In this document: positions 14,574 to 48,371 of the stretch, one piece after another
Layout of the letters: each line of letters begins with the position of its first letter
Numbering within the stretch: the stretch's first letter is position 1
Assembly (NCBI GenBank): GCA_013178415.1
Contig: JABLXA010000003.1
Span: 188,815-252,814, forward strand
Length of the DNA stretch: 64,000 nucleotides
Source: Bacillota bacterium
GTDB taxonomy: Bacteria; Bacillota; SHA-98; Ch115
Direction of reading: 5' to 3'
Program-made: the position numbers and the translations under genes
Notes under the pieces: generated by a model
Seen by the model: only the letters and a program-made list of their open reading frames with translations
The model's database searches: none
Told to the model about the DNA's origin: nothing

Positions 14574-14912
14574 TCAGTCACCGAATATCAAACGCGGATC
14601 CTTAGGCCTCTTCTTCACCGGCGACGCGGCCTCGGGTCTCACAGGCTCGCATACGATGACCGCAGTCTCTCCAGGGCGCACGAGACCAAGCTTCTCCCGG
14701 GCAGTTTTTTCTATATACTCATCGCTTTTGAGAAATTCGATCTCCTTGGCCAGTTTTTGGTTCTCACTCTGCCATAGTTCTATCTCCGCCAGGGTTGCGC
14801 GCACATCCTGGCGGGTGCGGACCAAACGAACATAACCTGTCACATAGGCAATACAAAGTATTATCAGAGCGACTACCGTGAGGACCTTCCGAATGGCATC
14901 ACGCATATTCAT
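14574..14912 (-). CDS. divIC: Septum formation initiator DivIC/FtsL-like
   Basis: Bitopic division protein: short cytoplasmic N-terminus, one membrane helix (VLTVVALIILCIAYVTGYV), then a coiled coil (QDVRATLAEIELWQSENQKLAKEIEFLKSD) and the conserved YIEKTAREKLGLVRPGE motif of the DivIC family. 112 residues from ATG 14912; the ORF is open 13 codons farther to 14951 within a repeated leader element shared with the lacI-type gene. Part of the divisome FtsL-DivIB-DivIC complex in Firmicutes. Placement before the S1 gene is as in B. subtilis. Confidence 0.88.
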   Translation of the reverse strand: MNMRDAIRKVLTVVALIILCIAYVTGYVRLVRTRQDVRATLAEIELWQSENQKLAKEIEFLKSDEYIEKTAREKLGLVRPGETAVIVCEPVRPEAASPVKKRPKDPRLIFGD

Positions 14913-14982
14913 CCCATTTCCGCCATGGCGGATACCCCTGTATTCACGCATAAGGAGAAGCCATGGTTCCCTCCCTTCTGAT
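14911..14982 (-). repeat. Leader repeat copy A (upstream of divIC)
   Basis: About 72 bp nearly identical (roughly 85 per cent) to 43091-43161. Reading on the minus strand it has a GGGAGGG ribosome-site-like stretch, an ATG, a stem CTCC...GGGG and the palindrome CCGCCATGGCGG, then the gene start. In this copy the first ATG (14964) opens a six-codon frame ending in TGA that overlaps the ATG at 14951 in the divIC frame. Confidence 0.75.
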
Positions 14983-37654: not shown

Positions 37655-37980
37655 ATAAAAAAACCCTCGTCCTGTAAGGGACGAGGGTCGATTCCCGCGG
37701 TGCCACCCTGATTAGTCAGTAGACGCATTGCGCCTTTGGCTCACTCAAAAAGGCACAGGCTTATCGAAGTCGATGCCCTCCCCCTTGTAACGGCGAGGGC
37801 CCCCGCAGGCGCCTACTCACAGCGTATACGCTTACCGCGCATACTCATCAGGTATCGAGCTTTCGGGCCTGAGCTCGCGGATCCATTCAGTGCCGGCCTG
37901 ACGTCGAGTTTCCACCGTCCCCGACTCTCTTCATAGTCAGCGGGCGGCACCTACTATTTCCGGTCACAGCTTTTGACCAT
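37655..37980 (-). ncRNA. T-box leader, tRNA-Trp responsive
   Basis: Minus-strand leader of trpB2. Stem I contains an AGTA motif and, on its 3' side, GAA-TGG-A in the specifier loop, so the specifier codon is TGG (37883-37885), matching tryptophan. The T-box sequence AGGGTGGCACCGCGG is at 37695-37709. The terminator stem ACCCTCGTCC/GGACGAGGGT (37663-37688) is followed by seven Ts. Uncharged tRNA-Trp should favour the antiterminator and trpB2 expression. Confidence 0.93.
37663..37688 (-). terminator. T-box-controlled intrinsic terminator
   Basis: Ten-base-pair stem (GACGAGGG core) with loop CTTACA and a run of seven Ts on the minus strand, 31 nt before the trpB2 start; competes with the T-box antiterminator. 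Confidence 0.92.
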
Positions 37981-39414: not shown

Positions 39415-39678
39415 ATGGCGGAGGATATCCAAAAAAGAAGGCCGGTGCATGTAGTTGGTATTCGAGTTGAGGACAGGGTAAAATATGCGCCCGAAGTCCA
39501 GGAAATATTGACGAGATATGGGGATGTCATCGTGAGCCGGGCGGGATATCACAATCCGCAGAGCCCTGACGGCATCATTACGATGGTCGTTGAGGCAGAG
39601 CCAACGATCGTCCAAAATCTTGCGAAGGACCTGCGAAAAATCGAGGGCGTGTCAGCTGAAACGTGCCGGTTGACCTAA
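39415..39678 (+). CDS. TM1266-family ACT-like protein
   Basis: 87-residue protein resembling the TM1266 family, often annotated as iron-only hydrogenase system regulator. Pattern: VVGIRVEDRVKYAPEVQEILTRYGDVIVSRAGYHNP then IITMVVEAEPTIVQNLAKDLRKIEGVSAE, a ferredoxin-like ACT/NikR-C fold. GAGAGGTGCTGAGCC precedes the ATG. No hydrogenase genes occur in the window. Followed by the large palindromic element. Confidence 0.75.
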   Translation: MAEDIQKRRPVHVVGIRVEDRVKYAPEVQEILTRYGDVIVSRAGYHNPQSPDGIITMVVEAEPTIVQNLAKDLRKIEGVSAETCRLT

Positions 39679-39747
39679 GGCACGCCGAATGCGGGGTGCT
39701 CCTCCCATCGGCATTTGTCTGAGAGGCCGCGGTATGGGTGCAGGTGG

Positions 39748-39954
39748 TACCGGCCCAGCGGCTTTGATCCGAGGCCGGTAGACCCGGGGTTGGGATACTC
39801 CGATCGGCGGCATTGATCCGAGGCCATATAGCCCGAGGGCCTCGGATCACTGAGCAGCCTCGCAGCAAGGCTGCGTCCGCCAAGAGGAGTATCCATACCC
39901 CGGTCATGCTGCGTCCGACGGGACGAGTACACATTCCCACCGCCGCCTCGGATC
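39748..39954. repeat. Complex palindromic element / possible structured RNA
   Basis: GATCCGAGGC occurs four times, twice direct (39766-39776, 39815-39825) and twice inverted (39838-39848, 39945-39954). Long-range pairing: GGATACTCC (39793-39801) with GGAGTATCC (39886-39894), GGCGG (39806-39810) with CCGCC (39877-39881), and GACC..GGGGT (39781-39790) with ACCCCGGTC (39897-39905). Inside are hairpins 39815-39848 (11-bp stem) and 39854-39874 (GCAGCC/GGCTGC). Outside are hairpins 39748-39780 (TACCGGCC/GGCCGGTA) and 39912-39925. No credible ORF. Either a miniature palindromic repeat or a structured RNA. Confidence 0.7.
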
Positions 39955-40969
39955 ACAGAGCGACCCTAACGCCTTTCTTCGACGACTCATATGCCGCGAG
40001 GGCTATCCGAAGAGATTCATAACCGTCTTCCGCTGTAGCCAGCAACTCCTCCCGGCCAAGAAGGGCCCTGACGAAATTGGCGACCTCAGCGTCCCATCCG
40101 CCGCCTCCTACGTCATCCGGGAGGATCCAGCCAGATTTACCCAGATCAGTCTTGGTTTTATAGATCTTCAGCGGAGTCACGTAATCGGCCACAATGGTTC
40201 CTTCAGATCCGTAAATTTCTACGCCAAGGGGTCCCGCCTGGCTGCTCCAACCAACCTCAAAATAGGCCAGGAGCTTGGGATCCTTAAATTCCATGATGCC
40301 AACCGCCCAGTCTTCCACACTTATATCCTTCCCGAGAGTAGCGGTCTTCGCTGAAATGGAGGTTACATCCCCGCCGAAGTAGCGGCAAAGGTCGATAGCG
40401 TGAATGCCCATATCCAAAAGGGCCCCGCCCCCCGCCATCTCTGGTTTGAAGAACCAATCGCTCATAGCTGACCAGGAAAGATAAGGACCATTGTGCGCGA
40501 ACCTCACCCGCATCATCATAGGCTGGCCGATAAGGCCTTTCTGTATGTATTCTCTGACCTTGCGATTGAAATTGAAGTATCTGTGAGTGAAGCCAACCAT
40601 CAGCGTTACCCCAGCCTGCTTTGCTGCATCTATCATGGCACGGGAATCCTCGAGGCTCGTAGCCATGGGTTTTTCGCATAGCACATGCTTGCCAGCATTG
40701 ATGGCGTCAATGGTCTGCTGAGCATGCAAGCTATTGGGGGTGCAGACGCTCACTGCATCAATATCAGCCTTTGCGAGCATATCCCTGTAATCAGTATAGA
40801 CTTCCGGGACATTGTAAAGCTCCGCCGCTGTCATTGCTCTTCCTTCATGGACGTCGGCAACCGCTTGTATCGTAACTAGATCCCGCAGCTTTGCATAGGA
40901 AGGGAGATGCGCATTCCTGGCTATCGCACCACAACCGATTACCCCTACTCTGAGCTTGTTATCTGACAT
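39953..40969 (-). CDS. Gfo/Idh/MocA-family oxidoreductase
   Basis: NAD(P)-dependent sugar or inositol dehydrogenase family. N-terminal Rossmann fold RVGVIGCGAIARNAHLPSY (about residues 7-25), CTPNSLHAQQTIDAINAGKHVLCEKP with the family EKP motif, and the C-terminal domain GGALLDMGIHAIDLCRYFGG carrying the catalytic DxxxH pattern. 338 residues from ATG 40969 with GAGGGGG upstream. Probably co-transcribed with the isomerase (about 90 nt apart) and the LacI-controlled sugar operon; the two make a typical dehydrogenation/isomerisation pair for an unusual sugar. Confidence 0.9.
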   Translation of the reverse strand: MSDNKLRVGVIGCGAIARNAHLPSYAKLRDLVTIQAVADVHEGRAMTAAELYNVPEVYTDYRDMLAKADIDAVSVCTPNSLHAQQTIDAINAGKHVLCEKPMATSLEDSRAMIDAAKQAGVTLMVGFTHRYFNFNRKVREYIQKGLIGQPMMMRVRFAHNGPYLSWSAMSDWFFKPEMAGGGALLDMGIHAIDLCRYFGGDVTSISAKTATLGKDISVEDWAVGIMEFKDPKLLAYFEVGWSSQAGPLGVEIYGSEGTIVADYVTPLKIYKTKTDLGKSGWILPDDVGGGGWDAEVANFVRALLGREELLATAEDGYESLRIALAAYESSKKGVRVAL

Positions 40970-41058
40970 TAGACTAACCCCCTCATTTTGATGTGGGAGG
41001 GACATGTCAAGTCCCTCCTTATCTAGTATGAGATCCTTTGCTTTGGTGGTCCATGACC

Positions 41059-42000: not shown

Positions 42001-43143
42001 TTATCCCTCAGTCTCAGCAACCGCATATCTCACCATGCTCAAGGATCTTGGCCTGCTCGTCGACTCTCTAACCACAAGCGTCGGGGTGATGACCTGGTCT
42101 TTGACTTCGCCTGATGTCATCGCCTCTAGAAGCGCCAGCATGCTTATACGCCCTATTTCATATTTCGGCTGATCCACCGTGGTGAGCGGCACCTCCATCT
42201 GCGATGTGATCGCTAGATTATCATAGCCAACAACCGATACATCGTGAGGTATAGATAGCCCCAGTTCCCTGATTGCCCTCATCGCACCCCAGGCGTCCAT
42301 GTCGCCGCAGGCGAAGATAGCTGTAGGCGGATTCCTCATGGCAAATAATTTCCTGGCCGCAGCATAACCCTTTTCCCAGCTATAATCGGTGTCTATCACA
42401 AGAGTGTCGTCAGGCTCCAGGCCATGTTCACGAAGAGCTTCACTGTAACCTTTGAATCTGCTGAGCCCTTGATCAAACTCCTGGCCGCGCGCGCCTAAAT
42501 GGGCAATCCGCCTGTGTCCCAGTTCGATCAGGTGCTCCGCCGCGACAAAGCCCCCGTGAAAGTTGTCAACAGAGATCTGCGGGTATATCGCCTTCTCTGA
42601 TATATTTAGAATTCCGACAATAGCTGTGCCTCTTTCATAGAGCTCATTCAGCAGCTCGACATTTCTCGCGCCATTTGGACATATGATGATGCCGTCGACA
42701 CCTCGTTCCTCGAGAATCCGCAGGAAACGAGCCTCTCTATCTATATCATCGTTGGTAGTGTAAAGGAGCATATTATATCCCTTTTGTTCAGATACATCCT
42801 GGATTCCCTGAATCACCTCCGCAAAGAAGGACGCAGCTGCGGATTGAATGACCAGGGCAAAGAGACATGTTTGTCTTGTCTTGAGTCCCCGCGCGATGAA
42901 GTCCGGCCTGTAATTTAGCCCACGAGCCACCGCCCTTACTCTCTTCCTCGTCGCTTCACTTACGCGCCCCTTATCTTTGCTGCTGAGCACAAGGGAAGCG
43001 GTGCAGACCGATACACCGGCCTGCTCTGCGACATCTTTCAACGTCACACGCCTTGTAACTGATTTCTGGCGACTTCCCAATCTATGCGTCATCCCTTTTT
43101 CGCCATGGCGGATACCCCTGCGTTCACGCATCAGGGGAGCCAT
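42001..43143 (-). CDS. LacI-family transcriptional regulator
   Basis: HTH VTLKDVAEQAGVSVCTASLVLSSKDKGRVSEATRKRV (about residues 33-68, with hinge helix) followed by a periplasmic-binding-like effector domain ending with VGYDNLAITSQMEVPLTTVDQP and TPTLVVRES. 380 residues. ATG 43143 has AGGAGGGAAGGAACT upstream and lies in the leader repeat, so the protein has an unusual N-terminal extension MAPLMRERRGIRHGEKGM. It probably represses the sugar ABC operon via the GGATAATCGATTAACC-type sites. Confidence 0.93.
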   Translation of the reverse strand: MAPLMRERRGIRHGEKGMTHRLGSRQKSVTRRVTLKDVAEQAGVSVCTASLVLSSKDKGRVSEATRKRVRAVARGLNYRPDFIARGLKTRQTCLFALVIQSAAASFFAEVIQGIQDVSEQKGYNMLLYTTNDDIDREARFLRILEERGVDGIIICPNGARNVELLNELYERGTAIVGILNISEKAIYPQISVDNFHGGFVAAEHLIELGHRRIAHLGARGQEFDQGLSRFKGYSEALREHGLEPDDTLVIDTDYSWEKGYAAARKLFAMRNPPTAIFACGDMDAWGAMRAIRELGLSIPHDVSVVGYDNLAITSQMEVPLTTVDQPKYEIGRISMLALLEAMTSGEVKDQVITPTLVVRESTSRPRSLSMVRYAVAETEG

Positions 43144-48188: not shown

Positions 48189-48281
48189 CCTCGCATCGAG
48201 AGTGGCGGAGGGACTGGCCCGATGAAGCCCGGCAACCGGCAACCTGAGTGTTGCAGTGGTGCCAAGTCCTGCAGAGCGAGG
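48189..48281 (+). ncRNA. SAM-I (S-box) riboswitch aptamer
   Basis: P1 is CCTCGC (48189-48194) with GCGAGG (48276-48281). Between them are the invariant S-box blocks GAGAGTGGCGGAGGGACTGG, CCCGATGAAGCCCGGCAACC and GTGGTGCCAAGTCC. Binding SAM should lower expression of the homocysteine/methionine genes downstream. A nine-base-pair hairpin, GTCCCGCAA (48281-48289) with TTGCGGGAC (48310-48318), touches the 3' side of P1 and may belong to the switch. Confidence 0.95.
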
Positions 48282-48371
48282 TCCCGCAAGATTCGTTTCC
48301 AGGAGAGTTTTGCGGGACAGGAGTTCTGAGAGATGGGAGGGAGGAAGTCTGAAGTTCGATGAATATGACGG

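Follow-up and report, generated by a model that had tools for sequence, protein, structure and literature searches.

The window analyzed here, a 64,000-nucleotide stretch of a Bacillota genome (contig JABLXA010000003.1, positions 188,815-252,814), contains a palindromic element at approximately 39690-39965 that nearly fills the gap between two convergent genes. One of these (39415-39678, plus strand) encodes a TM1266-like regulator of the iron-only hydrogenase system (PF21699, E = 4.7e-11), and the other (39953-41005, minus strand) encodes a Gfo/Idh/MocA oxidoreductase (PF01408, E = 8.8e-35). Both genes lie outside the element proper, and the stop codon of the oxidoreductase gene is supplied by the rightmost arm of the element, in agreement with the first-pass annotation, in which the last of four repeated boxes was said to overlap the stop codon of a dehydrogenase gene. 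The box, GATCCGAGGC, indeed occurs twice in each orientation, with exact matches at 39766 and 39815 on the plus strand and at 39839 and 39945 on the minus strand. The same annotation placed a nested palindrome with an outer stem and two hairpins at 39748-39954. The palindrome is present there: the fold of 39730-39970 yields z-scores of -6.8, -6.6 and -6.8 against dinucleotide shuffles (the two strands and DNA energies), and in each case none of the 200 shuffles reaches it. The extent was underestimated, given that another arm lies further to the left.

The center of the element is a core hairpin with arms of type A (39784-39903, plus strand; inverted repeat I1) that scores 114.8 and 99.3 bits against the covariance models R1 and R2, respectively. 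Its closing stem (39784-39810/39877-39903) consists of 27 nucleotides, is imperfect (81% complementary) and leads into a three-way junction. The TG opposite AT in this stem, which the first-pass annotation took for a compensatory mismatch, forms an internal loop in the window copy; real compensation is found only between copies. The tip that follows consists of hairpin 1 (39811-39852, plus strand), in which the pairing of 39811-39825 with 39838-39852 gives C-N-T, a 12-bp stem with a 12-nt loop, and C-N'-G, and of hairpin 2 (39854-39874, plus strand; GCAGCCTCGCAGCAAGGCTGC), after which come a conserved GT and the closing stem. To the left of the core are two more arms on the plus strand. The outermost one, of type D (39690-39729, GGGGTGCTCCTCCCATCGGCATT...), is identical over 22 nt (39694-39715) to the left arm, also D-type, of another copy, L006 (0 expected by chance), and the second one (39730-39783, GGCTTTGATCCGAGGCC) is a B-type arm with the 5' half of its own hairpin 1, matching the B-type left arms of L002, L004, L006 and L047. 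To the right of the core, also on the plus strand, there is an extra right arm (39904-39944, GCTGCGTCCGACGGGACGAGTACAC...), a direct repeat of 39870-39900 (77%) with right-arm matches in most copies, and then a truncated B-type right arm (39945-39965, GCCTCGGATCACAGAGCGACC; direct repeat D3), the full version of which is present in L007, L008 and L010. The order in the window copy is, accordingly, D-left, B-left, A core, extra right arm and truncated B-right.

As noted in the first-pass annotation, no open reading frame explains the element; the short ORFs that cross it show no Pfam match, and a coding function was dropped. Several other features of the window can be mentioned. A T-box leader (37674-37976, minus strand) precedes a tryptophan-synthase-beta-like gene, and a SAM riboswitch is located at 48190-48297 (plus strand). 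A 50-nt repeat (14909-14958 and 43089-43138, 88% identity) contains the palindrome CAGGGGTATCCGCCATGGCGGATACCCCTG and overlaps the predicted N-termini of two unrelated minus-strand ORFs, a small protein of 125 amino acids and a LacI-type regulator; it may be a further dispersed repeat or a leader common to both.

A search of the window's own genome (3.57 Mb in 57 contigs) with the 241-bp element sequence returns long copies at approximately 20 loci, together with numerous fragments, and the covariance model R1, built from 16 cores, detects 18 full cores at E < 1e-8. In all, this bacterium has about 18-25 copies of the small non-coding repeat to which the structure belongs. A chance palindrome, the refutation named in the first-pass annotation, is ruled out. 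All copies examined are located between ORFs or at the 3' edges of ORFs, as called mechanically with the short ORFs inside the elements ignored. The orientation relative to the neighboring genes is mixed; a hand count gives about 10 opposite and 3 same, a tendency too weak to use. No match to the element was found among phages, plasmids and viral contigs. The region between gap and pgk is about 330 bp long with the element in this genome, whereas the orthologous region is short and element-free in three relatives (about 50 bp in G001 and about 90-130 bp in G002 and G003), which is direct evidence of insertion at that one locus, distinct from the window locus. The window locus itself was compared with UBA6811 (locus L031), which encodes an oxidoreductase ortholog (84% identity) with no element after it; the oxidoreductase gene is the only shared gene seen there, and no empty site is readable. 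Next to this ortholog, UBA6811 carries a purine riboswitch (L031:4096-4199; RF00167, 49.3 bits) upstream of a gene whose start resembles a 2Fe-2S protein; provided that the gene is called correctly, this would be an unusual target.

The cores share one layout: left arm; C-N-T; hairpin 1 (12 bp, loop of 11-12 nt); C-N'-G; A; hairpin 2 (about 7 bp); G-Y; right arm. Four types of arms, each internally complementary, are found in this genome, namely A (GGATACTCC/GGAGTATCC), B (GGTGATACCGTCCC/GGGACGGTATCACC), C (GACGGTATCCC/GGGATACCGTC) and D (GGGTGCTCC/GGAGCACCC). Most loci possess extra left arms upstream and extra right arms downstream of the core. In L004, a B left arm, an A core and a B right arm follow one another in nested order, and in L007, L008 and L010, the right side of B, including its hairpin 2, comes after the A core, as if A were located in the hairpin-1 loop of B. 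The nesting in this genome is irregular: on one reading, the outer shell of the window copy misses parts of its own hairpins, so that simple insertion into a loop requires later deletions.

Relatives of the element were identified in two of the three other genomes of the order that were examined, G002 and G003, both from another family of the same order. The models R1 and R2 detect 8 copies of the tip in G002 (E from 8e-13 to 4e-9; R1 was not trained on this genome) and one in G003. The tip was detected in no other of 17 genomes of the class and no other of 398 genomes of the phylum, with strict filters that may miss weak relatives. In G002, the tip is part of a 232-bp palindrome (type 1) with the terminal inverted repeats (TIRs) CTAAGTTAGTGCGCAAAAAT, the full copies of which are mostly 91-97% identical. 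A second element (type 2), of approximately 198 bp and with the ends CTAAGTGTAGGTTC, is represented by 126 TIR sites in G002 and 13 in G003, with 0 in the control. Its stem sequences are unrelated to those of the other tips, whereas the junction letters and segment lengths are identical; the junction nucleotides C-N-T ... C-N'-G-A ... G-Y are common to three families. A descriptor of this geometry retrieves 20 distinct sequences from 654 kb of partly overlapping DNA, all of them in these element families, and 0 from 512 kb of random sequence; having been composed after all three families were known, it gauges specificity rather than discovery. Many type 1 copies in G002 carry a type 2 element at one and the same position of their hairpin-2 loop, which makes it probable that the two have spread together as a composite.

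Dozens of G002 contigs (e.g., C28, C42, C43, C47, C51 and C79) start or end inside the 198-bp element; these palindromes probably broke the assembly, and the copy numbers are minimum values. Among the otherwise similar copies L103, L104 and L105, the tip of the 198-bp element is seen in both orientations, a loop inversion due either to genuine recombination between arms or to an artifact of the assembly. An apparent 6.4-kb transposon bracketed by the TIR motif on contig C18 of G003 was rejected because each of its TIRs is part of a small element of its own, and the genes lying between these elements are ordinary.

Nearly all copies in G002 and G003 are flanked as C-TA-[element]-TA-G, without any longer duplication; L103 and L136 hinted at a 7-bp target duplication, which other copies do not show. 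The interrupted type 1 copies read CTCGAC-TA...TA-GCCGC, and the uninterrupted copy L080 reads CTCGACTAGCCGC; this single copy is the source of the empty CTAG site. An IS630 composite reportedly prefers CTAG, to judge by the title of a 1991 paper by Tenzen and Ohtsubo that PMC2170065 cites. The C-TA...TA-G ends are the signature of IS630/Tc1 elements, and IS630 elements are described as duplicating TA (PMC2170065). In G003, CTAAGTTAGTGTCC and CTAAGTTAATGCAC flank an IS630 transposase copy with an interrupted frame (NF033545, E = 2.6e-45), and one end of a second IS630 copy matches the TIR of the 232-bp element in 18 of 20 positions. The window's own genome has, at the end of a contig, a fragment 97% identical to this second copy, with its left TIR, and G001 carries a 74% identical IS630 copy, the end of which resembles that of the 198-bp element (12 of 14). 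No intact IS630 with matching ends on both sides was found, the copies seen being broken, truncated or at contig ends, and G002 yielded no DDE_3 match. Among the copies of types A-D, the window's own family, no recognizable TIRs of the CTAAG type were found; the only copy in this genome that combines the tip with CTAAGTGA-type ends is L064, in which the left end is diverged. The probable membership of A-D among the IS630-derived elements draws on the shared tip and on L064.

Taken together, these observations best fit a family of IS630-type MITEs, palindromic and non-coding, of which the window element would be a composite and decayed copy and which is confined, as far as sampled, to one order (probability of roughly 0.7). 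The first-pass annotation read a high copy number as indicating a MITE/REP-like repeat, and of its alternatives the MITE branch stands. On this reading, an IS630/Tc1-type transposase that cuts at TA would have acted in trans on the A-D family, and the loops of older units, as harmless targets, would have tended to receive the new ones, giving rise to the nested palindrome. It would be processes at the DNA level, either template switching or selection acting on a hairpin in the DNA, and not function as an RNA, that preserved the complementarity of the paired arms. Having since been truncated, the window copy now occupies the space between the two convergent genes. Our confidence in the components of this scenario falls from the movement of A-D by IS630, through loops as preferred landing sites, to a DNA-level role of the tip.

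A familiar example of an IS630/Tc1-mariner-derived MITE is RUP of Streptococcus pneumoniae. The elements described here resemble such MITEs in being short and non-coding, in the TIRs and C-TA...TA-G flanks of the G002 and G003 relatives, and in the presence, within the order, of a putatively cognate IS630 that matches their TIR at 18/20 positions of one end, a fragment of which exists in the window's own genome. They differ in being almost wholly palindromic, with a conserved T-shaped three-way-junction tip and nested units, and in that the A-D family has lost, or never had, recognizable TIRs. Another comparison is with the fold-back MITE QMITE2 of Coxiella (as reviewed in PMC10969869): full-length fold-back and intergenic location are shared, as is, putatively for the window family, movement in trans, but the present element lacks direct repeats of 7-9 bp and shows a conserved three-way junction with covariation and repeated self-insertion.

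The tip itself could be a DNA structure under selection, a T-shaped cruciform that is bound by a transposase or a host protein, or that aids the survival of long palindromes in replication, with the mobile element organized around it. This possibility, which is tentative, is compatible with the MITE explanation and adds a function for the tip. It is consistent with the junction geometry being common to families with unrelated stems and arms, and with the stem changes being nearly all two-sided and Watson-Crick. Across the cores, 92.7% of the cells are paired, and two-sided changes occur in 18 pairs, comprising 66 cells, compared with a mean of 21 in shuffles (0 of 500 reach the observed count) and at most 10 when the pairing is slid; the pattern of compensation also holds across the element families. 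Furthermore, in some tips, namely those of most A-type copies, two Watson-Crick pairs of hairpin 1 are replaced by a tandem G-A mismatch. At this position the window copy is Watson-Crick paired, unlike L002 and L004, its nearest relatives, which show the tandem G-A; a template-switch correction or an exchange with a B copy would produce such a change. However, template switching is described as a mechanism that yields two-sided changes without selection (PMC8794818), common descent could account for part of the shared geometry, and no binding partner of the tip is known. The outline of the fold resembles the AAV-type T-shaped terminal hairpins, in which a long stem ends in two small hairpins, but this is an analogy only, with no shared sequence, genes or demonstrated mechanism. 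The more far-reaching proposition that the T-junction was selected for mobility or tolerance and was retained in three or more MITE families through the replacement of stems and terminal repeats, with the loops serving as landing sites for growth as a nested tree, is speculative.

The covariation and the conserved junction nucleotides of the three families could also point to a structured non-coding RNA with the three-way junction as its functional core, acting in cis as a regulator or in trans, of which the genome has accumulated copies; transcription downstream of genes is plausible. Strong covariation, which the first-pass annotation proposed as the mark of a structured RNA, is indeed observed; the single conserved copy that was to accompany it is not, and the pattern looks DNA-level. 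One-sided departures from pairing are rare, and G-U mismatches are as rare as A-C mismatches (9 vs 13 of 592 cells; 3 vs 4). Because the G-U count does not exceed the A-C count, no strand is favored by the mismatches, which argues against an RNA. In addition, the orientation relative to genes is mixed, the copies nest and truncate freely, and there is no Rfam match at the gathering level, the remaining ones (mir-1266 and others, E = 0.04-10) being taken as chance. A relationship to T-boxes, considered on account of GGGTGGTATCG, which resembles a T-box motif, was rejected, with no T-box match on the element or at 17 other copy loci. An RNA is thus an improbable explanation.

Finally, these elements share with REP/BIME/REPIN sequences (GTAG- or CGTC-tagged), which are described as multicopy intergenic palindromes in mosaic clusters near the 3' ends of genes (PMC3733652), all of these features, and the GCGTCC beside hairpin 2 recalls the CGTC tag, but mobilization by a RAYT (Y1 tyrosine) transposase is highly unlikely and this explanation is largely refuted because no Y1_Tnp (PF01797) or RAYT/IS200 transposase was detected in the four genomes of the order that were searched, with positive controls, and, besides, the units are 100-230 bp rather than 20-40 bp long, the CGTC is inside the junction rather than at a terminus, and the related elements possess TIRs and the TA signature.

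In the usual portrayal of MITEs, the middle between the transposon ends is dispensable. Here, it is the T-junction in the middle that is most conserved, and the arms and terminal repeats turn over; in our partial coverage of the literature on MITEs, REPs and IS630, mostly titles and abstracts, no conserved three-way-junction tip is described. If the tip is selected, cruciform-like DNA would have a structural role in the spread or tolerance of palindromic elements. The nested copies also preserve a natural history of insertions into hairpin loops. Moreover, the family illustrates clearly that strong 'RNA-like' covariation can arise in mobile DNA, which calls for caution when RNAs are sought by covariation.
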